Part shown: in pieces, positions 1,302 to 22,180 of the stretch
Layout: each line of letters opens with the position of its first letter
Position numbering within the stretch: the stretch's first letter is position 1
Origin: a virus
IMG/VR virus record: IMGVR_UViG_3300027917_003197
Location: 1-22,300 of that record
Reading direction: 5' to 3' (one strand)
Length of the DNA stretch: 22,300 bases
The notes under the pieces: generated by a model
The model's database searches: none
Told to the model about the DNA's origin: nothing
The model's input: only the letters and a program-made list of their open reading frames with translations
Translations under genes and position numbers: made by a program

Positions 1302-1610
1302 ATGCGATATTGGGAAGTCCAATTAAAGGACGGAACTATAATAAAAGAAGGACAAATGGAGTGGAATAACGTGCCTAAGAAGGCTATCACTCGTTTGTCC
1401 TTATTTTTTGATGGGCGTAGATGGGATTTAACGGGCAAAGAAGCTTATTTTGTAAGGTATCGAGCAAGTATGATACCTGGAGTTAAAGAAAGTATGAGAT
1501 TGGAAAGAAGAACAATAGGCTTTTATGAAGGGGCTAGCAAAGTATGTTATCACGTAGATGAGTTTACCGGAAGATTTTATATGGAGGTCATAGATAATAG
1601 TGGCAGATAG
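1302..1610 (+). CDS. Small phage-type hypothetical protein, 102 aa
   Basis: A complete ORF starts with ATG at 1302, preceded by purine-rich AAGGAAAATGGAG (1282-1294) as ribosome-binding site, and ends at TAG 1608-1610. The protein is basic and mixed alpha/beta, opening with WEVQLKDGTIIKEGQ and continuing with a W-x-(D/L)-LTGKEAYF-like stretch. It has no signal peptide or membrane segment. The N-terminal pattern looks like small conserved hypotheticals carried by many large phages, but I cannot name a family or function. It overlaps the giant downstream gene by 11 bases, so the two are probably translated in a coupled way. A role as assembly helper or minor structural partner is only an inference from position. 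Confidence 0.75.
   Translation: MRYWEVQLKDGTIIKEGQMEWNNVPKKAITRLSLFFDGRRWDLTGKEAYFVRYRASMIPGVKESMRLERRTIGFYEGASKVCYHVDEFTGRFYMEVIDNSGR
1583..1588 (+). promoter_or_regulatory. Ribosome-binding site for the GTG start at 1600
   Basis: GGAGGT lies 11 bases before the GTG at 1600, inside the end of the preceding gene. The upstream in-frame stop TAG (1591-1593) leaves only two ATA codons before GTG, and the next in-frame Met is residue 45. GTG at 1600 is therefore the only sensible start. The spacing is longer than usual. Confidence 0.6.
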
Positions 1611-4600
1611 TCCGCACGTATGTCAATATTGGAGTGAGCTGGAACCTGCAGTTTGCGCAAACTGGGAAGGTGTATGTGTCTTCGAAGGTCCAAATGGCGA
1701 GCGAGCTACATTTTATCCCTATTGTAATATGATTGGTACTTCTTCGACATGTGATCAATATGACGCAGAGGGAACCCAATCTAGATGCATACTGCCAGAT
1801 GTAAGCAGGCATGTTGTAGATCGTTTAAGTCAAGACGGGACCAAATGGGTTACACTACCGGATAGAGATGAAGAGAATAATTATGTGGCCCTGGAAGATT
1901 CGGATTACAGTCGAATTACTAAGTACAACAAAGACCATTGCGTGTTTGGTGAGGGAGATGGAACTAGTAATCAATGCGCAGCGTATTCACCTTATCACTT
2001 AGGATTTACAACTATACAGCCGGATGATAAGGATTCCACATTAGAATATGACGAAGATGGATATACTACTGGAAGTGGGTTGACTTTTAGACTACCACTA
2101 GGTTATGAAATATTTAATGAACGATCTACATTAAGTAAATGTAATTGGTGGGAAGGATCGGTTGAGTATTTTTCGGTCTCTTCTGGTACTGGGCAGATAG
2201 AGCCTATTCTTTTTAAATGTGATCATCCAGACACAGGTTATACTAAGACATTCAACACACTTAGGTATAATACTGTTGATAGATTTTATACACCTCCTTG
2301 TAATGGCGCTAAACCTGAATGTCAATATTATACAGGTGTTTGTTGGAAATATTGTATAGATGAAAAAATGCGTCAGGGGGATAAAGTTTTAGCTGAACAA
2401 ATATTGGAATTAAGATGGCATTTAAAGAGGAATAGATGGGACGATGTAAAATTTAGAAGAGCTTTTAAAGATTCTAAAATCTATACGTGGGCTGGTGATT
2501 TGATCTATAACTATGATGCCAGCGGTACATTTATAAATAATTGGAGTATAGATTCATTTAGAACGGAAATAACAGATTATGATCTCTTCGAAGTCTCAGC
2601 TACTGGAGAGAGGCTGACAGCTGGAACTCAAGACCAAGGAGGTAAACCTGATTACCCCACATTAGTGGAGGCGCTTAAAGAATTACCCCTACAACCAATT
2701 ATTAGGAATAAATTTTTCAAAGATCCTTTGGACGGAAGCAAATATATTTTTGAGTCTGCTTCAATAGATGGGAGTTCTATATTACTTGTGGGAGATATTT
2801 TTTATAATAGTCCTACCTATGCAATAAATTTAAGTGATCCAGACTTAGATATATTGGCTAGAGATTTTAGAGCTCCGTTTGTTAAACAGACAGGAAGTGA
2901 TAATCCGGACGATTTAATTAGAGCCATAAATGATGGAACTGCCGAATTTGAGGTGGGGGATAAATATTACGATAGTATGGCCGAAATAGAAGCAGCTTAT
3001 GCTATTGAAGAAGAATTTGAAGAATTTTATGACAGATTTGATCTAGCTATAGAAAGGTTGTTGAAATATTGGCCTGACAAAATATTTAGTAGCGAAGTCA
3101 ATTCTGAGTCGTTAATGTTTTCGATAGACGTGCCGTTGCAATGGGGAGAAAACATTATTCTAGTACTAAATAAAGGTAGCGGTAGGTGGGAATTTGATTT
3201 TATGCAATTAACCAATCTATTTTGTGGCGGAGTTATAGCTCAGCGAAGTTTCTCATTAGTGGGGGACGATGCTACTATAGATTATTTACCAGCTTATGAA
3301 AGAGATTTTAATGCCTATTTAAATAAGAATGGGTCTATTGAGTTTAGCTTTGAAACTTATGGTAATGCTCGTGGACCATCCGCTACCACTTCTTACGTTT
3401 ATAATGATTATGCTTTTAATATTCCTTACGCTAATCCACTAAATCCACCGGATCAAGAAACCTATTATTTAGGGTATCGATTATATAAAGTTAAGTTGGA
3501 TATTCCTGATGTCCATATTTTGGCAGATTATATAAGATTTTTTGGAAATGTGGGATATGCAATTGTCGAAATTCCAGACGACGAACGAAAATTAAGTTGT
3601 GCTTTTAGAGATTGGGATATTGAGGGCTCGTTGAATTTACATATAACTACTCAATATGGTGAAGAAAAAACTATTGAAATGGAAATAGTAGAGAAATGTA
3701 CGGCGAGATTAGAAATTAATCAGATGATAATTAAACCTAAAAATCTGGCAGAGTTTACACAACCTTGTGATCCCTATTTGTCGTTCACGGGAGTTTATTA
3801 TTATGAAAAGCGCAGTTTTGATGAAACACCTGATGGAGAGTATGAATTAATAGATGACGATTTCGTAGGCGATGATACAGTTGTTTACAGAGATACTGCA
3901 GTTTTGACCGGGGCTTTAGATTATTATAATCTGACCGAATTTGGTAGTGACCCATTAATTATATCTGTTGTTTACAAAGGATTTATAACTGGCCATATAA
4001 AAGGTGTTACCCGCACAAAAATGCTGACATGGGTTAAGCAGCCTTATTGTCGCGATGTGGAAATATATTACGCTTGGGCTAGGGATTATAGGAATGAGAC
4101 TTTACATCCCGAAGAAGTTTGTTTTGGTCGTACTTATCCACAAAAAGATCCTGATTTGGTCACTAAAGGGCTTGCGCCTCCTTGTGGAGATCATGATCTA
4201 AGTGTATTTACAGGCAAAGGGCCTATGTGGTATCCATATGATGATTGTGATGAGACAGCCGCTTACCCTACAGACCAACTTACTCAACGAGTCACCCTCT
4301 TACTTAATAGGCCCATGGAAGTATTTCAACCTAACGAAGCTGGAGTTATAGAACACGGTTCTTGGGATATGAGAATGTTAGGACCGCAAGATAGTGAAGG
4401 GTATGTATGTGATACCCATGCTTCCATTTTTAACTGTACTTGTGACTGGTCTTACTGCAATTATAAAGCTGAGACCGAACAAAGGTTTACTGGATATGGT
4501 CGATTCAGAGGAAATATGGATGATGAAGCCAAGCTTCGAGCTCTTCAATTTGGAGGATCATTGCCCAAGTTCGGTAATCCGGTTAGAGATTTTCTGAGAA

Positions 4601-7035
4601 GTTATAGGTCTGTAGATAATACCTTTTATTATATAGTTAATAATGGGTCTTATATAAGAAGACAAAAATGGATGCCTTTATATTATTTTTATACTAGTGC
4701 GGATTTAGTGGCGGGTTTGGGAGGAAGTTATCCACATGAATTGTACAGTCGGGATTTAGAATCGCCATTTATTCATCCAATGGGGCTGTATTTGGCTGAG
4801 GGCAATATAGAAGGGGTAAATATAGCTGAGTATATTGACGTAGATGAGGATGATATTCCCAATAGATATTATTTTGACGAAATTTTTGATACTCATAGAA
4901 CTACTTCGTCATTGACATACCCGTATCCTACAAATGCTCAATATGATGGTAGTAACTTTCTTATAACTTGGTTTACATATAAAGATCACCCAACAGATAG
5001 TTCTAAGTCAATTCAATGGGCTTGGCAAGAAGTTTGGAGAGATATTGAGCGAGATATACCAGAAACTGATATTATATTAGGTGAAGATATAGGCGGTTTT
5101 GATTCTGGAGAATATAGTGAGACCGGGGCGATAGAAGTTGAAGAAGTAGGTGTAGAAATAGAAGAGTTGGTAACATCTCGACCTTTCGCCATTAGTGGAG
5201 ACTTAGACTATGTAGGACCATTTTTATTTTTAGACATTGAATATCCGGATTACAAATATGACGCCGAATTAGCAGAACATAGACTTGTTGCGGAAGAAGA
5301 TGACTATGTATTAACATTAACTGCTCCTGTTAGAAATAGTGATGGTGAGTACGAAGACCCTAAATTTAAACTGATGATGTCAACCGCTCTTGTGGACGGC
5401 CCTTATCGAACATTTGATATAGATGGAAATTGGGATCCAGATGATGTTGATAATACTTATTATGACTTGTATACTACTTGTACAACAAGCCCGTGGGTTA
5501 CTGACGTTACTTTATTTGCTCCTGGTTATACAGATAAAACTATAGCACAAGCTGAAACCGATGGTCGGGTTATATCCACATACGATAGTGGTGGAAGCGA
5601 GGTCAAAGAATACTACCAACGAGGACTTAACGTATCATTAGATACCGATAAATTTATCTATTTACCTAGAGAGAAAACTATTATAGAGTATTCAGCTCAA
5701 ACTGTAAAGTTTAGCGACGAGCCTTTCTTGGTATCTGAAGATAGTAAGTATGCAAGTATAATATCTGGCGAAACATACGCGGTAGAGCACTGTTGGGAAA
5801 TAGGATATTCAGCGGATCAAGACGAGGTAGATTTTACATTTAATTTTACTTCTAAGAAAGCGGTGGATCGAGTAATTATTATTTGTAAATTTGGAAGCGA
5901 AGTTCTGGAAACGGATGAGAATGATAATCCAATATCGTGGAGATTATATCATTTACCAGCAGTAGAACTCGCTAGATCTAATCTAGGAATAATTTATGAT
6001 ACGATGTTCAGCGCTAATCAGATGGTGTTAGCGGATAATAATGATAATCTAGTGAATCGTCAAATGTTAATAGATTATAATCTAGATGGAGAAGATGTGC
6101 TTGACACTCACAGTAAATGGAGACTAAGACTTAGAGTAAAGCCTACCTCGGCCGAAATAAACAATGCCGGAATCTCTGGTTATTATAATGACAGTGAGAA
6201 TGTAGTTTTCATAAAATGTATTTATGTTTATGATACTATATTTACAGATGCTAAGGAAACGATATCTAGTTATGAGCGGTTGTATAATATATCATATGGA
6301 AATCATGGGGATTTTCCTCCGCATGGTTATCAAAGTACCGGCTCATTGCTATACCCAGCTACCCACGAGTCATCAACTTTATATCAACGTGATAGTATTG
6401 GCGGAGTTGTAGGGTTATCTAATTCAGACGGCCAATTAAAGACCATGAATAAAATTAGGGGCCGAATAATGTTTGAATGCCATGAAGATAAGGAGCCTCT
6501 CTCAGTAAATACCGTGACGGGAATGGAAGATGAACAAAAACGCATCTACGATGAAATTGCAATCGGAGAAGGCTCGAATAATTTTACTTTTGAAGCTGTA
6601 GCCCCGCCAGGGTTTGAAGAGAAATTATCGAATGCGAATGCTACTTATCCAGCGTTATGGACTTGTAGGTTCACCAATAGTATTGTGTTACCCCTTACGC
6701 AGGTACAACAGTACGATACTTATACTGCTCTAGGCAACTATTGGGACTGGGATTTCTCTGACTTCCATTGGGAAGCTAGGTGTGCGGGCAGCCAGTTTGG
6801 GGTATTTAGTGTCGGTCCTAGACAGGTGTTTGATTATGTTTTGGTTTCAGCCTTTGACGATGATTTAATATGGCAACCTAACGACGCTATAGTAGTTTAT
6901 TACTCGACTATAGGTAGGGTTCTAGTCGATGCTTGGACTTATTTGAAAAATGAATTTACTGGCCGCGAAGAAGCACAGGATAGGATTTTAGATAGTACTA
7001 ATGATACTTACCCCGATGCTATAGATCCTTATTAA
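1600..7035 (+). CDS. Giant cysteine-rich virion-type protein of unknown fold, 1811 aa
   Basis: A single uninterrupted ORF runs from GTG (1600) to TAA (7033-7035). The first 252 residues hold 13 cysteines (among them 8, 19, 26, 42, 51, 63, 114, 126, 181, 207, 234, 241, 248 and 252), followed by a short helical stretch (GDKVLAEQILELR). Residues about 440-500 are strongly acidic and helical. A second Cys cluster at 937-952 (C937, C946, C948, C952, with H940 nearby) precedes a basic segment. The remainder is beta-rich, tyrosine- and aspartate-rich, and without clear repeats. No signal peptide, transmembrane helix, protease, hydrolase or lysozyme motif was seen. Size, composition and position among fibre genes suggest a baseplate, tail-spike or hub-like structural protein. 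The cysteines could bind metal or form disulfides in the finished particle. Virion role: moderate confidence. Precise function: unknown. Confidence 0.7.
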   Translation: MADSPHVCQYWSELEPAVCANWEGVCVFEGPNGERATFYPYCNMIGTSSTCDQYDAEGTQSRCILPDVSRHVVDRLSQDGTKWVTLPDRDEENNYVALEDSDYSRITKYNKDHCVFGEGDGTSNQCAAYSPYHLGFTTIQPDDKDSTLEYDEDGYTTGSGLTFRLPLGYEIFNERSTLSKCNWWEGSVEYFSVSSGTGQIEPILFKCDHPDTGYTKTFNTLRYNTVDRFYTPPCNGAKPECQYYTGVCWKYCIDEKMRQGDKVLAEQILELRWHLKRNRWDDVKFRRAFKDSKIYTWAGDLIYNYDASGTFINNWSIDSFRTEITDYDLFEVSATGERLTAGTQDQGGKPDYPTLVEALKELPLQPIIRNKFFKDPLDGSKYIFESASIDGSSILLVGDIFYNSPTYAINLSDPDLDILARDFRAPFVKQTGSDNPDDLIRAINDGTAEFEVGDKYYDSMAEIEAAYAIEEEFEEFYDRFDLAIERLLKYWPDKIFSSEVNSESLMFSIDVPLQWGENIILVLNKGSGRWEFDFMQLTNLFCGGVIAQRSFSLVGDDATIDYLPAYERDFNAYLNKNGSIEFSFETYGNARGPSATTSYVYNDYAFNIPYANPLNPPDQETYYLGYRLYKVKLDIPDVHILADYIRFFGNVGYAIVEIPDDERKLSCAFRDWDIEGSLNLHITTQYGEEKTIEMEIVEKCTARLEINQMIIKPKNLAEFTQPCDPYLSFTGVYYYEKRSFDETPDGEYELIDDDFVGDDTVVYRDTAVLTGALDYYNLTEFGSDPLIISVVYKGFITGHIKGVTRTKMLTWVKQPYCRDVEIYYAWARDYRNETLHPEEVCFGRTYPQKDPDLVTKGLAPPCGDHDLSVFTGKGPMWYPYDDCDETAAYPTDQLTQRVTLLLNRPMEVFQPNEAGVIEHGSWDMRMLGPQDSEGYVCDTHASIFNCTCDWSYCNYKAETEQRFTGYGRFRGNMDDEAKLRALQFGGSLPKFGNPVRDFLRSYRSVDNTFYYIVNNGSYIRRQKWMPLYYFYTSADLVAGLGGSYPHELYSRDLESPFIHPMGLYLAEGNIEGVNIAEYIDVDEDDIPNRYYFDEIFDTHRTTSSLTYPYPTNAQYDGSNFLITWFTYKDHPTDSSKSIQWAWQEVWRDIERDIPETDIILGEDIGGFDSGEYSETGAIEVEEVGVEIEELVTSRPFAISGDLDYVGPFLFLDIEYPDYKYDAELAEHRLVAEEDDYVLTLTAPVRNSDGEYEDPKFKLMMSTALVDGPYRTFDIDGNWDPDDVDNTYYDLYTTCTTSPWVTDVTLFAPGYTDKTIAQAETDGRVISTYDSGGSEVKEYYQRGLNVSLDTDKFIYLPREKTIIEYSAQTVKFSDEPFLVSEDSKYASIISGETYAVEHCWEIGYSADQDEVDFTFNFTSKKAVDRVIIICKFGSEVLETDENDNPISWRLYHLPAVELARSNLGIIYDTMFSANQMVLADNNDNLVNRQMLIDYNLDGEDVLDTHSKWRLRLRVKPTSAEINNAGISGYYNDSENVVFIKCIYVYDTIFTDAKETISSYERLYNISYGNHGDFPPHGYQSTGSLLYPATHESSTLYQRDSIGGVVGLSNSDGQLKTMNKIRGRIMFECHEDKEPLSVNTVTGMEDEQKRIYDEIAIGEGSNNFTFEAVAPPGFEEKLSNANATYPALWTCRFTNSIVLPLTQVQQYDTYTALGNYWDWDFSDFHWEARCAGSQFGVFSVGPRQVFDYVLVSAFDDDLIWQPNDAIVVYYSTIGRVLVDAWTYLKNEFTGREEAQDRILDSTNDTYPDAIDPY

Positions 7036-7435: not shown

Positions 7436-10400
7436 ATGTCCTATAATTTTCTTAGAAATGCTAGATCTATCAAAAATTCACCATTGTGTAGATATGACAC
7501 TTTGAATGGGTATGCTAGTAGTCTAGATTTAGATGGGGATTTTGATGGGTGGGATGTTTATGACGAGGTTTATTTATATGGATCTTGGAACGGAACGCTA
7601 TTTGGTACTGCCGATGATAGAGACTGTTATATTAGTAGAACAAACACTCTAGCTCCAGTAGTGGCAGCTTCCAGGTACTATTATATAGAATTAGTGATGA
7701 AAATTACCGATAATAATCGTAAAGCAGTGGGTGGATTGACTACTGGAAGAATTCAGTGGGTAACTATCAATGATCCACTTTGGGATACGGATAAACAGGT
7801 TGATTTTGATTTAATTAATGATGATAAATGGCATGTGTACCGCATTAATGTTGGCCCAGAATCGAAGTGGGTAGGATACGTAAATAATCTGAGGATTCAC
7901 CCATTTATAGATGGTTGGAGTGGGGATCAGTTTACTATAAAATCTATAAAAATAACATCTAATGACGATTGGGTATGTACTAATACTCAATGCTCTTATT
8001 ATACATCATACGAACACCCGTGCCCGGGCGCAGGAAGACGCGCTAACTTGGAGGCGGGAACTTCTAATACTTTTTATACTACAATATCTGGAATTAGTGA
8101 TAAATTGATAGTAAATATAGACGGATATGGCAATGAAGAGTTTGAATTAGGTACGAATATTAATTTAAATGGCGTGGAAATGGCTAGAGTAGTCACCAAT
8201 GCTTTAGGTGTATTAAATATGGGAAGTTATGCCTTTGCAGAGTGTGAGTATTCGGATTTTGATAAACTTAAAATTACATCTGGTACAGTAGGATCGGACA
8301 GCTCTGTGACCATTTTGTATTCAGCCGCCGCTGAAGCTCTGGGATTTTATGATGGTACAACCAATATTTCCACTCATCAATCAGGTATTAATCAAGCTAC
8401 TAAATTTGATTATGCTGCTTCTAGACTGTTTAGACCATTTGAAATTAATAAATTAATAGATGGCTACATTGATGAGCAAGCTTACGTGCATAACCCGCAT
8501 CAATTTGCAACGGAAGGTGGGCGTAGGGATTTTGCCAATATAGGAAATTCTAAGTTAATTTCAAATTTGGCGGGGACGGAATATTATGAAAATTTAAATA
8601 ATAAGGGTAGAACAATAATAGATTTATCGCACCCAATAAATAACAACGGGCGACTGAAAGCTATTTATATTTTTGGCAAAATAAAGGATGGCGATACGGC
8701 TAAGGTAAAAATTTGTCGGCCGTTAAAGAACGGAAATCTAAAAGTTATTCATTCTTTGACATTTAGTAGTAAAACTGCGGGATTAGTTTATACATCTAAG
8801 GATGTTTCTTATAGAATCGATTGTGATATATTAGTTAGTAAGGGTGATGTTATTGGGGTTTATAATGCCAATTTGTATGTTGGTGTTTCCGTAAGCGGTC
8901 AACCAGACGCTACTTTTTACCAATACAACGGAGAGGCTAGCGGCACATTTGATCCGGGGCGGATATATGCTCTAGGAGTAGCTGGATTGTCGGTATATGC
9001 GAGAAGTGACAGACGTCAGAACAACGCCATATTAGATATTGATATGGGTAACAGAATTAATATTGAAGAGGTAAATATTTATGGACAAGAAGAAACCAGC
9101 TATTTCGAATTCAACATAGCTTCGTGTTTAGATGTTGATTGGGATGTCGAGTTATTTAATGAATATCATACGCATTACTATATTAACTGGAATACTGGAG
9201 AACCATTTGGAGTTAATCACAATAATATCGCTTATGGCGAGGATGCGTTATCTGATTTTAAGCGCACTCCTGATAACGGCAAAGTAGGTGATTCATATTA
9301 TTTTGATAATGGACTTGCCACAGCAGGAGAGCACAGTTATTTTTATGTTAATGGTGACGCTGAATGGTTGTACAGTTATGATGGTATATCCGAGTTTAAT
9401 TGGCCTTTGGTCCCTTACCAAACGGTAGGGTTTGTCAGAGACCCAATAGCTTTTACCTTACTATTTCCTAATGAAAGTGAAATTAAGATACATAAAAGTA
9501 TTATGTATTTTAAGGAAGATGACAATTTTAGAAAGTTTGCTTTGTCTTATTATTTGGGGTCGTCAAATGCTACAGGTAATGCAGACGATAGACATTTTAA
9601 CTATATACCTTCTTATAATTCTATAAGATTGGACGGACTGTTGTTTGATTCTACCAATAATGAAAATATAATTGATTATTTATTTAATAACCCATCATCA
9701 GACGATGCACTATACTCTGATGGCGAATTGATTAATGAATCAGCTGTCAAGCAATCGCATGCTACTTGGTGGAATACAATCGAACATAATTTCAGCCCTA
9801 TAAAATGTAAAGGATTTCGTATCTATTGTAATAAGCACCATAGTACTAAAATAAATGAGCTTGAAGTCTATAGTCGTGTCAGAACGGATGCCTCATTAGT
9901 GGATAATATATCCATGACATTTTCTGACGATGGTGAGATATATAAAAGTGCTGATTTCGAAGAAATAGAGACGTCTCAAGTATCTGCCTTTGTAGGAGGA
10001 GCTCCCAGATATTTTAGATTAGAAATGGAGTCCGGCCAAGAGTTTACTATTAATGAGATCGCGATGTCAGTAAGTAATCAGCTTAAATTACCCACTTGTG
10101 AGACCAGCGTGCTTTTAAACAACGCGAAAACTAACGAAATATCGGAAGCCACTCCCCTAATATTTGAAAATGTTTATGACAGGCCTTTCGATCTTATAAT
10201 AGATTTGCCTAAAGAAACTTCTGAAACTAATAATCTAATATTTTGGAGTAGATTTGATTCATTAGATGATATCGAGAACCCTGATGTTGGCCCTGCCTGT
10301 TTTTTATATAAAGAAGATAATTATGACTTATTAAATATGAATGGGCAGTGCGCCATCAATGATCCCACTTATGGGCTTATTAATCTGGTACACGGAAAAG

Positions 10401-13400
10401 AATCTTATGAAATTGTAGATTTAGATTTGAGATGGACATCTCTAGGCACTTTATCTAGCGGGGTCTCTATAGATTTTTGTAATAGTGATTATAAAGATAT
10501 TAAAAAAACCTCATTGAATATAGATGTTGATTCGTCCGGTCAATATTGGAAGGTTGGTTTAAGTTATTTTAATCCTCCTACAGCAGGTATAGTAGCTACA
10601 TATCTAGGAGATATATCAGGCAGCTCTTTTATCGATAGTGGTCCAAATAATTATCATGGATCTACATATGGTAATCCCAGTGAAGTAGTATCAGATGAAG
10701 TAGAAGGCAATTTAATCTACTTTGATGGCAATGATGACATCGAGCTAATGACACACGCCGAAGCCTCTACTTTTGAAAATGCGTTTTCAGTGTCTCTCTT
10801 TTTTAAATGCACCACGACTGTTGGCCATGGTGCCGCCAGGATCATAAGTAGGGATATCTCGGATTATTTCGGCCTGAGAATAGATCAGAGCACCAGTTTT
10901 CCCCAAGAACTCCTATTTTATGATAATACTACTACCCATAATTTGGGTAGTATAATTCAGCCGGATATTCTGTACCATGTAGTTATGATGTTTGATGTTG
11001 CTAATCAAATATCTAGGTGTTATTTAGACGGAACCTTATTATATGAAGATTTATCGTGGGGCGGATTTGATGCCACTAGCAGACCGCTAGCGCTGGCTTC
11101 GAACGTTGAAGCTACTACCCAGCACAATAACCAATTTACAGGTTATATAGGGGATGTTAGATTCTTTAATTATCTTCTTTCAGAAGAAGAGATACGCAAT
11201 TTAAAATATGTTGTAGCCAATTTAGATTCCATAGTTGTTTATAAAAATTCTGATAGATTGGATATAGATAGAGTATATGTTGAAAGCACTAATGATGCTA
11301 ATTCTCAAACTAACGTTTTGATTTCTGACGGGCTTAATATCCCCCTTTCTTATGAAAATCAGTCTTTTGGTTTTAGATTGGCGGGTGGTCCCGATACAAT
11401 AACCAAAGTGGTTATGTATCATTCGCCAACTACTGTTACTAGTGGGGCTGTTAGAGTAAGCCCAAATAATGGTAATAACTATGTTATTGTGGGCTCGTCG
11501 AAGGTGGGGACTTACTCAAATAATAATTGGTATCAGTATTTTGCGATTGATTTAGAACATCGTCATAATATAGATATAATACGGAACTATGGTAATGCTA
11601 CTAATAAATTATTAATAAATAAAGAGACTGGTGTTGAATATTCAAACACAGAAACTTCAGATCCTGATAGTGTAGTTTGGGATAATAGTGATTATACCGA
11701 TGCTAGATGGATGCGAATAAAGCTTTTATGTGGCGATGGGGTTACCAGATGTATTCGTAAGTTGGGTATTTATCCTGATATACTTCAGAATTCTACTCCA
11801 GATAGTGCGTATAACTGTGAATGGCAGTCTTTGGGAACCATATTAACCAATTATGATGTACCTATAAATGTGGCTTATGGAGCTACTGTTACCGGCACTA
11901 ATTATTATTTCAGTACTTGGTATCCTACTAATGCCGTAGACGGAATACATGATGATTATTCGGCTTTAGCTTGCTGGGGATTTCAAAAGGAGCCAGGAGC
12001 CGATGATCCCTACATAGAACTAGACTTTGGCCAAACCTATACGATTAATAAGATTGTCTTATATCACGGATATAATCCTGGGATTGATGATTACATGAAT
12101 ACAGATTATACTTTTAGTGTTTCGGCGAGTACTAGTGGATCTTTTTCAAATGTATTTTCTATAAGTGGTAATTCAAGCCATACAAGAACCCATCAATTTG
12201 ATTCAGTACAGGCTCGTAGAGCCAGGTTAACAATAACTGGGTATGACAGAGGCGACTCTCTTTCAATCTATGATCCTGCCACTAACCAATTTAATATATT
12301 TTTAGGCAGTTTCCTAAGAGAAATAGAGGTTTATACTTATGAAGATAATGGTTACATCGATAGTGAAACTTGGCCTATAGTGTGTATAAATCTTAAAGAA
12401 CCATTCAATGTTTCAAATCATACCTTGATAAATAAAGATCCTAGCGACACATCGACAAACTGGAGTAATGATGATCAATTTTTTTATTATTCAGGCGATT
12501 ATTATGATGATCCCCAAAAGGTGGCCTTCAAAGAAAACCCAGATAGCGGTGTAGTTTATTCGGCCGTAGATAGTTCTGGAAACGCTGAGGGCGAGACAGA
12601 ATACTTATTTACTCAAAATCTATTTTTGGAAGAGGGTATATATCTTATAGAATGGGATGCCTATGACGCTGACTCCGACGACGAGATAAGTTTGCGGTTC
12701 GATGGGCCTGAAGTATTAGATCATTTTGCAGATAATTTAGGTGGGGGCACATGGGTAGCTCAGTCAGGGTATATTCAAATAACAGAAGAAGGTAACTATG
12801 ATCTTAAAGGTATGCAGCACCTAGATTTTAGAGATGATTGGGGAGTTAGAAATCCTGTTATAACTAAATTTAGCACTTCTTCTAAATGGGTGGCTATAAA
12901 AAGAGACACTGCCACAAATTATTCCTATGATGATGATTCTGGAAAATACGGAATAGATTATTTGGAAACAGCCAAGATGTTTGTCAACGATACTCCCCGA
13001 CCTACAGAATATTATTGGTGGTGGGGTTCCAATTTGAGTACATTATCCAACGACTCTTTAAATGTCAAAGTTGGGTCTCGTTCTTTGAAAATTAGGTATC
13101 CCACATCTTCAGGCGTCGACACTTTACAATTTATTGAAGGAGATAATTTTGGTATCGATAATATTTGGTCTGTTAAAGATGTCTTGCAGTTTTGGTTAAA
13201 GATTAGTAATGTGGGTAAGCTGGACACTTCTTTCGGTGATATAACTTTCGGTAGTATAAATCGGGGAGATCCGTTTTATTATGTTTGGAATATTAGCGAT
13301 TTGAATTTGCAGACCGGGTGGAATTTGGTCAAACTTAAATTTGATGATTATGCGGATACTTTTCCAGAACCAAATGATTTGGGTATTAAAACTTATCTAG

Positions 13401-14326
13401 AGGATGATTTGGATTTAAGAAATAACGATAAAAACCTGAAATCATTAAGGATTAGATTTCGAGGAAAAGGGCAGCCCTTTAATATGTATATGGATGATTT
13501 ACACATAGAAAGAAATGTTTTTGAGGACACTGTCCAACATGGGAAAGGTTTGCATTTGAATGGGCATGAGTTGCTACAAATACCCGTGGCTGGGTTAACG
13601 CTTGAACGGGGAGCGGTGGAATTTTGGTTAAAAACCTATTATGATTCTTATGGCCAGGACATGTTTAATAATACAGCTTCTAAAACTTTTTTTACGATAA
13701 CTAATAATAACAATGATATTGTGTCATTAGGGCTCAGAGGTGGAAACTGGTTCGAAGCTATAGTGGGAAACATTAGGAGCAACTTAAATAGGTTTAACGC
13801 TGAATTTGCCAATTTCATAGAGGGTAATTTTGTTAATGTGGGCGAAGTTATTCACTTAGCGTTGGCCTGGAGTCATGATAGTGCTTTTATGGATAATGAT
13901 CATACATTGAGACTATATTTGAATGGAGAACTTATATATGCTAGTACAACTCAATGGGAAGTGAGCGACACGAAGAGTGTACATATTTTGCTCGGGGGTA
14001 AAAGTACCCAGTTAGCCTTCAACCAAGAATCGTATGGTTCTGGTATATTTGATAATATAAAAGTGTATAATTATCCAAAGGACGTTTTTCATATTTATGA
14101 AGAAGGTGTAGAAAGGGATATCATTTATACTCCCAATGATTTTCTTGAAATATCTTCAGACAACGTGAGTTTTTACGGCGCTAACTCTGATCAATTACCC
14201 ATTATATTTGAACAGGTTCCTGCGGGGGGTTCAAGGACCATATATTTGAGGTCGAATAAGAACGACAATTTTGCGCAGAGTAAAAAAACTGCAAATTTGG
14301 TTGTGCAGTGGTTGACAACGGTATAA
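7436..14326 (+). CDS. Giant mosaic adhesin-like virion protein with LamG-like and F5/8-like modules, 2296 aa
   Basis: ATG at 7436 directly follows the previous stop, with AAGGA at 7423-7427 as ribosome-binding site; it ends at TAA 14324-14326. Modules in order: an N-terminal jelly-roll-like region (about 20-180); a Cys motif C181/C186/C196; a beta unit at about 214-305 ending in AEALGFYDG; several discoidin-like sandwich stretches to about 900; a LamG/concanavalin-like domain at about 1058-1260 (IDSGPNNYHG, LIYFDGNDDIEL, YLDGTLLYED, GYIGDVRFFNYLLSEEEI); an F5/8 type C-like domain at about 1479-1637 (NAVDG, YIELDFGQTYTINKIVLY, REIEVYTYE); a carbohydrate-binding-like sandwich at about 1830-2030; a second LamG-like domain at about 2035-2222; and a C-terminal module with PAGGSRTIYLRSN (2262-2274). 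These folds usually bind glycans or surface proteins, so a host-recognition fibre or decoration is inferred. No catalytic residues were recognised. Confidence 0.8.
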   Translation: MSYNFLRNARSIKNSPLCRYDTLNGYASSLDLDGDFDGWDVYDEVYLYGSWNGTLFGTADDRDCYISRTNTLAPVVAASRYYYIELVMKITDNNRKAVGGLTTGRIQWVTINDPLWDTDKQVDFDLINDDKWHVYRINVGPESKWVGYVNNLRIHPFIDGWSGDQFTIKSIKITSNDDWVCTNTQCSYYTSYEHPCPGAGRRANLEAGTSNTFYTTISGISDKLIVNIDGYGNEEFELGTNINLNGVEMARVVTNALGVLNMGSYAFAECEYSDFDKLKITSGTVGSDSSVTILYSAAAEALGFYDGTTNISTHQSGINQATKFDYAASRLFRPFEINKLIDGYIDEQAYVHNPHQFATEGGRRDFANIGNSKLISNLAGTEYYENLNNKGRTIIDLSHPINNNGRLKAIYIFGKIKDGDTAKVKICRPLKNGNLKVIHSLTFSSKTAGLVYTSKDVSYRIDCDILVSKGDVIGVYNANLYVGVSVSGQPDATFYQYNGEASGTFDPGRIYALGVAGLSVYARSDRRQNNAILDIDMGNRINIEEVNIYGQEETSYFEFNIASCLDVDWDVELFNEYHTHYYINWNTGEPFGVNHNNIAYGEDALSDFKRTPDNGKVGDSYYFDNGLATAGEHSYFYVNGDAEWLYSYDGISEFNWPLVPYQTVGFVRDPIAFTLLFPNESEIKIHKSIMYFKEDDNFRKFALSYYLGSSNATGNADDRHFNYIPSYNSIRLDGLLFDSTNNENIIDYLFNNPSSDDALYSDGELINESAVKQSHATWWNTIEHNFSPIKCKGFRIYCNKHHSTKINELEVYSRVRTDASLVDNISMTFSDDGEIYKSADFEEIETSQVSAFVGGAPRYFRLEMESGQEFTINEIAMSVSNQLKLPTCETSVLLNNAKTNEISEATPLIFENVYDRPFDLIIDLPKETSETNNLIFWSRFDSLDDIENPDVGPACFLYKEDNYDLLNMNGQCAINDPTYGLINLVHGKESYEIVDLDLRWTSLGTLSSGVSIDFCNSDYKDIKKTSLNIDVDSSGQYWKVGLSYFNPPTAGIVATYLGDISGSSFIDSGPNNYHGSTYGNPSEVVSDEVEGNLIYFDGNDDIELMTHAEASTFENAFSVSLFFKCTTTVGHGAARIISRDISDYFGLRIDQSTSFPQELLFYDNTTTHNLGSIIQPDILYHVVMMFDVANQISRCYLDGTLLYEDLSWGGFDATSRPLALASNVEATTQHNNQFTGYIGDVRFFNYLLSEEEIRNLKYVVANLDSIVVYKNSDRLDIDRVYVESTNDANSQTNVLISDGLNIPLSYENQSFGFRLAGGPDTITKVVMYHSPTTVTSGAVRVSPNNGNNYVIVGSSKVGTYSNNNWYQYFAIDLEHRHNIDIIRNYGNATNKLLINKETGVEYSNTETSDPDSVVWDNSDYTDARWMRIKLLCGDGVTRCIRKLGIYPDILQNSTPDSAYNCEWQSLGTILTNYDVPINVAYGATVTGTNYYFSTWYPTNAVDGIHDDYSALACWGFQKEPGADDPYIELDFGQTYTINKIVLYHGYNPGIDDYMNTDYTFSVSASTSGSFSNVFSISGNSSHTRTHQFDSVQARRARLTITGYDRGDSLSIYDPATNQFNIFLGSFLREIEVYTYEDNGYIDSETWPIVCINLKEPFNVSNHTLINKDPSDTSTNWSNDDQFFYYSGDYYDDPQKVAFKENPDSGVVYSAVDSSGNAEGETEYLFTQNLFLEEGIYLIEWDAYDADSDDEISLRFDGPEVLDHFADNLGGGTWVAQSGYIQITEEGNYDLKGMQHLDFRDDWGVRNPVITKFSTSSKWVAIKRDTATNYSYDDDSGKYGIDYLETAKMFVNDTPRPTEYYWWWGSNLSTLSNDSLNVKVGSRSLKIRYPTSSGVDTLQFIEGDNFGIDNIWSVKDVLQFWLKISNVGKLDTSFGDITFGSINRGDPFYYVWNISDLNLQTGWNLVKLKFDDYADTFPEPNDLGIKTYLEDDLDLRNNDKNLKSLRIRFRGKGQPFNMYMDDLHIERNVFEDTVQHGKGLHLNGHELLQIPVAGLTLERGAVEFWLKTYYDSYGQDMFNNTASKTFFTITNNNNDIVSLGLRGGNWFEAIVGNIRSNLNRFNAEFANFIEGNFVNVGEVIHLALAWSHDSAFMDNDHTLRLYLNGELIYASTTQWEVSDTKSVHILLGGKSTQLAFNQESYGSGIFDNIKVYNYPKDVFHIYEEGVERDIIYTPNDFLEISSDNVSFYGANSDQLPIIFEQVPAGGSRTIYLRSNKNDNFAQSKKTANLVVQWLTTV

Positions 14327-19195: not shown

Positions 19196-20650
19196 ATGAC
19201 CAAATGGGTTGAAAATAATAATGCTCAGTGGGTAGATTCCGACGAAGAACAGTGGGCTGTGTCGGGCTATGTTGATTTGGGCGCATCGGTATTTGGCATA
19301 ACCACTGGTGGGGTTCGGTTTAATCTTGGAGCTTATATAAATGTCATTTATACAAAAGATCTAAATGCGATCATTCGAGCTTTTACGCCATCGGATTTGG
19401 GGGCGCTTATAAATGTGGTACAGCCGGTCAATCTACCTGCGTCGATCCATGGATGGGATACTAAAAATTTAACAGCTTTGACGGCCGGCGTGTATGGGCC
19501 TGGAGATTTACAAGCCTCTATTGTAGGCACAGGTGGTTATAGAAATATGGAAGCATATGTGCGTGGTATGCTAGGAACTGAAATATCTAGAAATTTGATT
19601 GCTAATTTAATCGGAACCTACAGCCAAAATCTGCAGGCTATTATAGGATCAATCCCACCGAAAGATCTACAGGCCTTAATAACAGCTACTGGCCAAGCCG
19701 TAAATTTACCCGCTTCAATCGTTCCCAGAGTTATTTACATGACCCAAGTTCTTGAAGTGGCTTTACTGGAACATAAAAATTTGCATGCTATGATAAATAG
19801 TCTATGTTTTAGTAGCGGAAGTTTAGACCTAAATGCTTATACTAAAGCCATCTATAAATTAGACCTACAAGGCATTATCTTTGGATGGCATATAGACATT
19901 TACTCCAATGTTATAGATTTAGCTGCAGCTATAAATACTGCCGATTTTTCGGTCGAGGACAAATTGCCAATAAGCTTTTTTGGAGAAAATATAGATTGGT
20001 ACCATACAAGATTAAAGATAGGATTCAATGCTACTGGGCCAGCTTACACTGTCTGGGATACTCAAGACATTATTTATGGAGCTGCTATTTATAGGAACTT
20101 AGCAGCTAGTATAACTGGCGTACTAGAGTCAATAAACCTGGGAGCTACTATAACCGCCGTATTTGATTTTAATTATACAGAACTACCTTATTATGTTAGC
20201 CCGAGAACAAGAGAGGTAGTTATAGAATTTGATCATCGGTGGAGAGAAAAAACTCGCCGTTTCGTAGAAATATTTTTTGATAATAGTGGGAATACTCCAT
20301 ATCATTATTTCTATGTGAGTGGCACAAACAAGGTCTATAGAGTAGATCGAACAAGACATTGGACTATATGGGCTAAGGGATTTGACCAAGTCGATACAAT
20401 GATTGAGCGTAGGAACGTTAGACACAAGTTTATTTTTAAAGCATCCCAATATGCGAATGTTGATGAGGCTATCCGAGATTTAATAGACAGAGTTTCCTAT
20501 TACAGACGAGCTAATCTTAGTGCTTTTATAAATGGCATATTACCACCCAATGCTAATTTAACCGCTTCAATTAATCCTGTGGTTCCTATTACGCCGCTAT
20601 TCACTTTGAGAGATTTGGGTGCTATTATTAATGGAGTAACATTGGAGTAA
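19196..20650 (+). CDS. [DN]LxAxI dodecapeptide-repeat protein, probable fibre, 484 aa
   Basis: ATG at 19196 follows GGAG (19184-19187); the stop is TAA 20648-20650. The first 20 residues have Trp at 4, 12 and 20 in a polar Asn/Asp/Glu context. From residue 27 the protein is dominated by a short unit, [DN]-L-x-A-x-I-x-x-h, recurring mostly every 12 or 13 residues. [DN]L pairs (one is NM) start at 27, 43, 55, 67, 79, 91, 104, 117, 133, 145, 157, 170, 195, 211, 223, 241, 301, 314, 440, 454 and 473. Residues about 325-435 interrupt the array with a basic, aromatic globular segment containing REVVIEFDHRWREKTRRF. The regular hydrophobic spacing suggests stacked short strands, that is, a solenoid or rod. 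No enzyme motif or membrane helix is evident. As the last gene of the structural run, a fibre or tip protein is inferred; the fold is not one I can name. Confidence 0.75.
   Translation: MTKWVENNNAQWVDSDEEQWAVSGYVDLGASVFGITTGGVRFNLGAYINVIYTKDLNAIIRAFTPSDLGALINVVQPVNLPASIHGWDTKNLTALTAGVYGPGDLQASIVGTGGYRNMEAYVRGMLGTEISRNLIANLIGTYSQNLQAIIGSIPPKDLQALITATGQAVNLPASIVPRVIYMTQVLEVALLEHKNLHAMINSLCFSSGSLDLNAYTKAIYKLDLQGIIFGWHIDIYSNVIDLAAAINTADFSVEDKLPISFFGENIDWYHTRLKIGFNATGPAYTVWDTQDIIYGAAIYRNLAASITGVLESINLGATITAVFDFNYTELPYYVSPRTREVVIEFDHRWREKTRRFVEIFFDNSGNTPYHYFYVSGTNKVYRVDRTRHWTIWAKGFDQVDTMIERRNVRHKFIFKASQYANVDEAIRDLIDRVSYYRRANLSAFINGILPPNANLTASINPVVPITPLFTLRDLGAIINGVTLE
19274..20635 (+). repeat. Degenerate ~12-residue [DN]LxAxI repeat array
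   Basis: About 21 units are visible by eye. The densest runs cover residues 43-116 and 133-180 with almost exact 12- or 13-residue spacing; later copies are more scattered, and two clusters flank a non-repeat domain. Typical units are NLGAYINV, DLNAIIRA, DLGALINV, NLPASIHG, DLQASIVG, NLAASITG, NLSAFING and DLGAIING. The codons differ between copies, so this is protein-level selection rather than recent DNA duplication. Confidence 0.75.
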
Positions 20651-20732: not shown

Positions 20733-21383
20733 ATGCGTTTAGAGCATATTGAGGCTACTTCAATATCTGATAGTTGGTTTCAATGCTTGAGTAGAATATT
20801 TGATAGCGGCCGTATTTATACAATAAAAAGAGGAAGTTATGAAGGTCAGCAGAGATTAGAATTTGATTATATAACTATATATATTAGACATCCAGAAGCT
20901 AGACCACTGCTTCCAGAATGCCCGCCGGCCTGTGGAATTCCAAATCCTGCCTCGAATGAATATCTCGAAGAATATCTACCATATTTATTCACAGACCATA
21001 AAAAGCCTAACGAATTTTATACATATGGAACTTACCTAGAAAAACAAATCGAAAAAGTGATAGGTATATTCAAAAAGGGAGATCATGAAACTAACCAGGC
21101 TTGCATGACCATTGGGGATGATCATTCTATCGACCTGCCTGATCCACCCTGTTTAAAAATAATAGATTGTAGGGTTAACGACAATAAGTTGCATTTTATA
21201 ATATATTTTAGATCTAACGATCTATGGAACGGGTATCCAGTTAATATAGCTTCTATACAATTGTTAAAGGAATATATGGCTGAATCGGCCAATTTATTAG
21301 ATGGCGAAATAATATATTCTAGTAAAGGTTTGCATTTATATGATTACGTTTGGGAAGGGGCTAAAAAGGCTATAGGTAAATGA
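20733..21383 (+). CDS. Thymidylate synthase-family protein, short archaeal-like form, 216 aa
   Basis: The start is ATG 20733 with AGGAGA upstream; the stop is TGA 21381-21383. Family landmarks appear in order: YTYGTYL (97-102); PPC with the nucleophile-position Cys140; RSND at 160-163, as in the phosphate-binding RSxD; GYPVNIAS with Asn171; a helix LLKEYMAE; and HLY with His201 and Tyr203. In ThyA these bind dUMP and methylene-tetrahydrofolate and transfer the one-carbon unit. Asn171 matches the Asn that selects dUMP, where dCMP hydroxymethylases have Asp. The residue after Cys140 is Leu, not the usual His. At 216 residues it is shorter than bacterial ThyA (about 264) and near the length of archaeal forms. 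It could make dTMP or, as in some phages with modified DNA, 5-hydroxymethyl-dUMP. It overlaps the next gene by four bases. Confidence 0.85.
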   Translation: MRLEHIEATSISDSWFQCLSRIFDSGRIYTIKRGSYEGQQRLEFDYITIYIRHPEARPLLPECPPACGIPNPASNEYLEEYLPYLFTDHKKPNEFYTYGTYLEKQIEKVIGIFKKGDHETNQACMTIGDDHSIDLPDPPCLKIIDCRVNDNKLHFIIYFRSNDLWNGYPVNIASIQLLKEYMAESANLLDGEIIYSSKGLHLYDYVWEGAKKAIGK

Positions 21384-22180
21384 TACGATATAATATAGTT
21401 TATAATATACGTGAGGCTGTAGATCTATATGATTCTGGGCATAGTCTTAGAGCAATATCTGAAATTTTCGGCGTGTCTAGAAAATTTATACGTAAATCTA
21501 TAGCAAATGTTAGAAATATTAGAAGTGCCAAAGAACAATCATTTTTAACTGCTCAAATGCGTAATATGTCCGATTGGTTTGATATTATAGACTCACATTT
21601 AAAGGCTTATTGGTTAGGCTTCGTATTAGCTGACGGTAATGTAGCAAGTAATTTAAGATCAGTTGAAATAGATCTAGCGATTAAAGATGTTGAGCATCTG
21701 AATAAATTTGCTGAAATATTCAGAATCGACGTAGAAAAAGGTGAAAACAGATGTAGATGTAGGATCTGCAATGTGTATTTATGCAATATATTAGATAATA
21801 TCGGAATACATCCCAACAAAACGTATTTAAATGATGCGTCTGTTTTTGATAAAATACCTTTAAAATTTGCTAATTCTTTTATACTAGGATTTATGGACGG
21901 CGACGGCTCAATATATTTAGATAATAGAAAAAATAATTACATTATTTTAGATTTTACTGGGAGTGAGTCAATTTTAAGAAATGTCAGAGATATATTAGTT
22001 TCTATTCTTCGTGTTAATAAAAATAAAGTTTCTCCAACAAAGAGCGTATTTAGAATACAGTGGTCTGGAAAGCAGGCTATAAAAATATTAAATTGGTTAT
22101 ATAAAGATTCGCCAGTTAGACTGGAAAGAAAATTTAATATATATAATAATATAGCGTCCGAGAAACTCTTCGGATATTAA
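21380..22180 (+). CDS. LAGLIDADG homing endonuclease with N-terminal HTH, 266 aa
   Basis: ATG at 21380 overlaps the stop of the thymidylate synthase-like gene (ATGA); only weak AGG-like sites precede it, so translational coupling is likely. The stop is TAA 22178-22180. Residues about 11-40 form a helix-turn-helix (AVDLYDSGHSLRAISEIFGVSRK), of the kind used as extra DNA-reading domains in mobile endonucleases. Two LAGLIDADG motifs follow: YWLGFVLADG (77-86) and FILGFMDGDG (167-176), each ending in the acidic residue that binds catalytic metal. This is the two-motif, single-chain arrangement. Three cysteines at 125-130 (CRCRIC) lie between the motifs. No frameshift is seen, so it appears intact. 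It is free-standing, not inside an intron or intein visible here, and its cleavage site may be in or near the adjacent gene in uninvaded relatives. Confidence 0.9.
   Translation: MIRYNIVYNIREAVDLYDSGHSLRAISEIFGVSRKFIRKSIANVRNIRSAKEQSFLTAQMRNMSDWFDIIDSHLKAYWLGFVLADGNVASNLRSVEIDLAIKDVEHLNKFAEIFRIDVEKGENRCRCRICNVYLCNILDNIGIHPNKTYLNDASVFDKIPLKFANSFILGFMDGDGSIYLDNRKNNYIILDFTGSESILRNVRDILVSILRVNKNKVSPTKSVFRIQWSGKQAIKILNWLYKDSPVRLERKFNIYNNIASEKLFGY

Follow-up and report, generated by a model that had tools for sequence, protein, structure and literature searches.

The window analysed here, an entire IMG/VR record of 22.3 kb, encodes a protein with a long series of [DN]LxAxI units recurring at short intervals, which raises the question of what structure such units would form and what part the protein plays in the phage.

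The repeat protein and its units

The repeat protein is encoded by a complete ORF (Table 1), with a Shine-Dalgarno-like GGAG slightly 5' of the ATG at 19196; an earlier note on this DNA had begun the feature at 19274, which is only the position of the first DL. The same note had counted about 21 [DN]LxAxI units, and these are real: we found 20 matches to the strict pattern [DN][LM]xAx[ILVT], and 21 on allowing G for A (DLQGII), where 2000 shuffles of the protein gave an expectation of 0.18 and a maximum of 3. The successive spacings between the 21 units are 16,12,12,12,12,13,13,16,12,12,13,25,16,12,18,60,13,126,14,19; 11 of these 20 steps span 12 or 13 residues, in keeping with the spacing described earlier, and Fourier analysis of hydrophobicity along the protein, which had been proposed as a check, peaked at 13 residues. 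Given that no tandem DNA repeat was detectable beneath the array, the units have diverged at the DNA level. The non-repeat domain that had been described within the array was also recovered, at about residues 326-438, and is mildly basic, with a net charge of +6 as against -7 for the array.

We found no known solenoid or repeat family matching this protein in Pfam, PHROGs or PDB, as the earlier note had supposed: none of the Pfam models, including those for hexapeptide, pentapeptide, beta-helix, adenovirus shaft and LRR repeats, scored above its gathering score, and weak Pfam matches to DUF285 and others were judged to be due to chance. Sequence searches of PDB with the protein, the array profile and the inserted-domain profile returned nothing significant, and neither did tblastn searches of GenBank phages with the repeat protein, its relative P0003 and the array of relative L027 (best E about 1) or of plasmids with the L027 array. 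A search of the open-access literature found no description of a [DN]LxAxI repeat.

Table 1. Parts of the repeat protein and neighbouring ORFs (positions in the 22.3 kb window)
Feature	Position	Strand	Remarks
1811-aa ORF	1600-7035		
2296-aa ORF	7436-14326		
Repeat-protein ORF, complete	19196-20650	+	484 aa
N-terminal tag, three Trp (WVENNNAQWVDSDEEQW), residues 1-26	19196-19273	+	a like tag opens neighbouring 300-325 aa ORFs in related phages
Regular array, residues 27-183	19274-19744	+	12 [DN]LxAxI units, spacing mostly 12-16
Second unit stretch, less regular, residues 184-260	19745-19975	+	conserved IN..C anchor at residues 200-204
Variable loop (261-300), then two units (301, 314); residues 261-325	19976-20170	+	large insert in this part in relative L061
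Inserted domain, residues 326-438	20171-20509	+	highest conservation within the family; without a known match
C-terminal units, residues 439-484	20510-20647	+	unit starts at 440, 454 and 473
Thymidylate-synthase-like ORF, short	20733-21383		216 aa
HTH + LAGLIDADG endonuclease ORF	21380-22180		

Relatives in uncultured phages and the gene neighbourhood

Relatives were reached first via the adjoining 1811-aa ORF, and then by direct searches with the repeat protein. About 20 homologues were compared, all from uncultured viral contigs of up to 238 kb in IMG/VR, and their identity to the protein of this record is 54% for L027, 46% for L028, 38% for L030 and 26-30% for the rest of the alignment (A3). 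Terminase matches in three long records that hold homologues, two of which are above the family cut-off, would suit tailed phages; the tail sheath family was not found in ten related records. Two pattern scans of limited sensitivity over GTDB genomes gave 46 candidate stretches each, none of them confirmed. As for individual records, an in-frame TAA breaks the match upstream of the repeat ORF in L030, where the copy may be truncated or start later, and L023 and L024 (G008 and G012), which are IMG/VR records from different samples, share an identical repeat-protein frame of 741 residues.

An iterated position matrix over the family detected about 30 units per protein, as against 3.4 in shuffled sequences. 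A set of 179 distinct units gave a 12-residue consensus (D/N, L, x, A, Y/S, I/L/V, polar, G/A/S, I/W, x, P-rich, x) that reads, as far as sequence can tell, as an amphipathic strand followed by a turn, and conservation across the family is 0.70 in the motif columns versus 0.43 in the others. In the C-terminal half almost all members share one series of spacings (12,12,13,12/13,16,12,12,13,25,16,12,...). The stretch before the IN..C anchor, for its part, is between 163 and 515 aa long in members that are not cut by a contig end, with the protein of this record among the shortest, and this variation in length indicates that units have been gained or lost N-terminally. A 14,14,15 rhythm is seen in the N-terminal units of some relatives.

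Most members open with a PPxxxxPFxF..GYxxPxFxxxxFxF tag. The tag with three Trp or aromatic residues opens the repeat proteins of this record, L044 and L059, and in other phages of the group it opens a separate, adjacent ORF; to us the N-terminal tag looks like a swappable docking tag. Some members carry additional modules, such as a DUF2341 (just under the cut-off) and a Laminin_G_3 domain at the C-terminus of L029, and in L061 the large insert, which separates the last units from the inserted domain, has a sub-threshold F5/8C-like match. The inserted domain itself had been proposed as a binding head, a reading that is weakened by its all-pair identity of 43%, as compared to 33% for the array. 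Receptor-binding tips are usually not the most conserved part of a protein, and because this domain behaves in the opposite way it is unlikely to be such a tip.

The repeat ORF is preceded by the 1811-aa ORF, the 2296-aa ORF and two more large ORFs, and the gene order in the group runs from the 1811-aa ORF through a 130-aa ORF, a giant ORF with LamG and F5/8C domains and more large ORFs to the repeat protein. Downstream of it, relatives have a more or less complete set of thyA, NDK, a clamp of the DNA polymerase III beta type and RecA, with one to three further large ORFs intervening before thyA or the clamp in L052, L056, L062 and L063. The repeat gene closes a tail-type module or lies close to its end, and from this gene context its product may be located in the virion.

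Several neighbours merit description in their own right. The 2296-aa ORF combines Laminin_G_3 and F5/8 type C domains and is probably a glycan-binding tail protein. The 1811-aa ORF, whose family is unknown, has many invariant Cys and Trp residues, occurs in 13 further phage loci, and is a good marker gene for this phage group. In the short thymidylate-synthase-like ORF Pfam matches only the C-terminal half, and a 4-base overlap joins it to the ORF of the free-standing HTH + LAGLIDADG endonuclease (phrog_4645, 2e-47). Four relatives in which thyA follows the repeat gene were checked (L043, L044, L045 and L062), and none of them has the endonuclease at this position. Endonuclease-like ORFs are also inserted between tail genes in this group, at L045:1612-2475, L045:4716-5567 and L002:23314-24174, the last of which contains repeated zinc-ribbon-like CPxGHxxxxxWxxW..RCPYC segments.

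Similar repeats in cultured large Bacillota phages

A synthetic consensus, [DN]LPASFVVR, which served as a lead, matched gp52 of Brevibacillus phage Jenst (ALA07182.1) with an e-value of 9e-3. By the family matrix Jenst gp52 has 38 units, as against 7.9 ± 2.6 in shuffles, and Bacillus phage G gp367 has 15, as against 3.5 ± 1.6; an excess of units was also noted in SP15_064 of Bacillus phage SP-15, Listeria phage LIS04_86 and Sundance gp53. Perkons ORF173 matches Jenst gp52, yet shows no excess of units in the motif scan. Other matches to the consensus were rejected: those in Aeromonas PhAER-6 and Vogesella fall on the strand opposite to the annotated genes, with simple repeats, gp25 of Arthrobacter EastWest has no units, and the match on a Blattabacterium plasmid, where no gene is annotated, was set aside.

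When the array alignment was compared by hhalign with the class formed by the Jenst, SP-15, LIS04 and G proteins, it gave a probability of 84.8 (E 6.6e-6) over 201 columns, against 1.9 at most for the controls, namely two other alignments, the reversed alignment and 30 shuffles of its columns. Within this class, Jenst gp52 is a member of phrog_11333, of unknown function; the phrog_11333 scan was run on this protein only, and the other proteins of the class were grouped by tblastn to it. Since the repeat protein of this record has no match to the phrog_11333 model at E <= 10, we describe it as sharing the phrog_11333 kind of repeat and do not file it as a member. A common descent of the repeats in the uncultured family and the Jenst class is plausible; it is not proved, because short repeated motifs can converge, and the similarity to the Jenst class, which depends on many copies of a short motif, could have arisen in this way. 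With this reservation, the repeat seems recognisable in cultured large Bacillota phages, where it had gone unnamed.

In Jenst gp52, phage G gp367 and Sundance gp53, CBM96 modules are embedded between the units; a Pfam search found no CBM96 in the repeat protein of this record, which has another domain instead. The genes of this class in cultured phages adjoin genes for RCC1-like, F5/8C or carbohydrate-binding proteins upstream, and an amidase or a holin and endolysin downstream. SP15_064 (KT624200; L070) and LIS04_86 (OQ999172; L071) are labelled 'pectate lyase' and 'pectin lyase fold', and there is a clear [DN]LxSxI excess in the part of them that was read, so that these labels cover at most a portion of the two proteins.

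Possible fold and role

Taken together, we consider the repeat protein to be probably a structural protein of a large tailed phage, belonging to its distal tail or its fibre apparatus. This is supported by the units themselves, the conservation of their order, the variable length of the array, the gene context and the similarity of the repeat to CBM-bearing proteins of giant phages. We propose that each unit would form one beta strand, with its L, A and I facing the core, followed by a short G/P turn, and that the strands might stack into an elongated rod, either alone or with copies of the same protein. The number of N-terminal units would set the length of this rod, and the N-terminal tag would dock it to the virion, while the conserved inserted domain could serve as a joint, an oligomerisation module or an attachment module. 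In relatives, lectin-like domains interrupt or follow the array, so that the rod may present sugar-binding surfaces to the host.

Structure prediction bears on parts of this proposal. AlphaFold models had a mean pLDDT of 35.5 for the repeat protein (11 sequences) and 43.5 for the L027 array (22 sequences), and both of these low-confidence models show about one strand per unit. In a Foldseek search of PDB with a low-confidence model the neighbours were mainly beta-helix proteins, such as the P22 tailspike and pectate-type enzymes (best E 0.04), with no match at E <= 0.001; a fold search against viral models gave nothing significant, with phage G gp367 ranking fifth (E 0.28). The models and fold searches suggest beta structure, and no more. 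Hence, of the earlier description of the array as a solenoid or strand-stacking rod, the predictions favor one strand per unit, whereas the stacking is not borne out by models of such low confidence that lack a fold match at this threshold.

The array could alternatively be an ordinary single-chain right-handed parallel beta-helix of the sort found in many tailspikes, each coil taking up two or three of the 12-residue units; the repeat would then be no more than an uncommonly regular form of it, and the protein would still belong to the tail. The earlier argument from the shortness of a 12-residue period does not settle the matter, as two or three units might fit into a single coil, and 24 residues would suit the usual one; the strands and turns of the low-confidence model are also of fitting length, and the Foldseek neighbours in PDB are largely of this fold. 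However, there is no fold match at E 0.001, the pLDDT is 43, and no Pfam beta-helix model matches the ORF. Furthermore, profile similarity at lags of 1-7 over 18 aligned units revealed no significant super-period, of two or three units or otherwise; a super-period of 3-4 units suggested by a crude test did not reach significance with the related sequences combined in a single profile. We therefore regard the beta-helix as rather unlikely.

Another alternative, which we consider improbable, is that the protein does not fold alone but is a molecular string, with its units completing sheets in partner tail proteins and tying virion proteins together. This would be in line with the apparent equivalence of the units, the recurrence of short strand-like N-terminal tags (FxF..GYxxPxFxxxxFxF and W-rich) among the proteins of this gene module, and both monomer predictions falling below confidence despite 11-22 homologues, although low confidence also results from shallow alignments and homo-oligomers. 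That the protein is not a virion part but an intracellular or assembly protein, whose gene merely happens to close the tail block, is very improbable: its gene does border thyA and replication genes, but relatives have fused or inserted lectin-like domains, the tag is common to other tail-module genes, and cultured phages place such genes between tail-type and lysis genes.

Returning to the tail or fibre protein that we favor, we suggest more tentatively that the 12-residue, one-strand repeat may represent an undescribed fibrous fold, common to a clade of uncultured large phages and to the cultured giants among Bacillota phages, and serving as a mast of variable length for sugar-binding modules. 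If this is true, unannotated tail proteins would have a common architecture, from large-phage lineages to textbook giants such as phage G, and the cultured phages with the repeat offer a system in which to solve its structure; a new fold would also be a fibrous building block of tunable length.

Among known systems, the right-handed beta-helix tailspikes of the P22 type are likewise elongated beta structures in phage tails with a weak Foldseek resemblance, but their coils take about 20-25 residues and lack a fixed [DN]LxAxI, and there is no significant sequence or fold match. The triple-stranded beta-helix of phage T4 gp5 and the triple beta-spiral of fibre shafts, with repeats of about 8 and about 15 residues, are also short-repeat fibres with one or two strands per repeat, and are comparable only in the way they would work, since their repeat length and consensus differ and no sequence match was found in Pfam or PDB. 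The phrog_11333 class, whose annotations go no further than hypothetical, 'pectate lyase' or 'pectin lyase fold', differs from the protein of this record in several ways: the fourth residue of the unit is S and not A, the arrays are less regular, some of the proteins are far longer, and the insert (in Jenst, G and Sundance) is CBM96 in place of the conserved domain seen here. The two have in common [DN]Lx[SA]xI units at a spacing of 12-14 residues, inserted globular domains and a similar gene neighbourhood.
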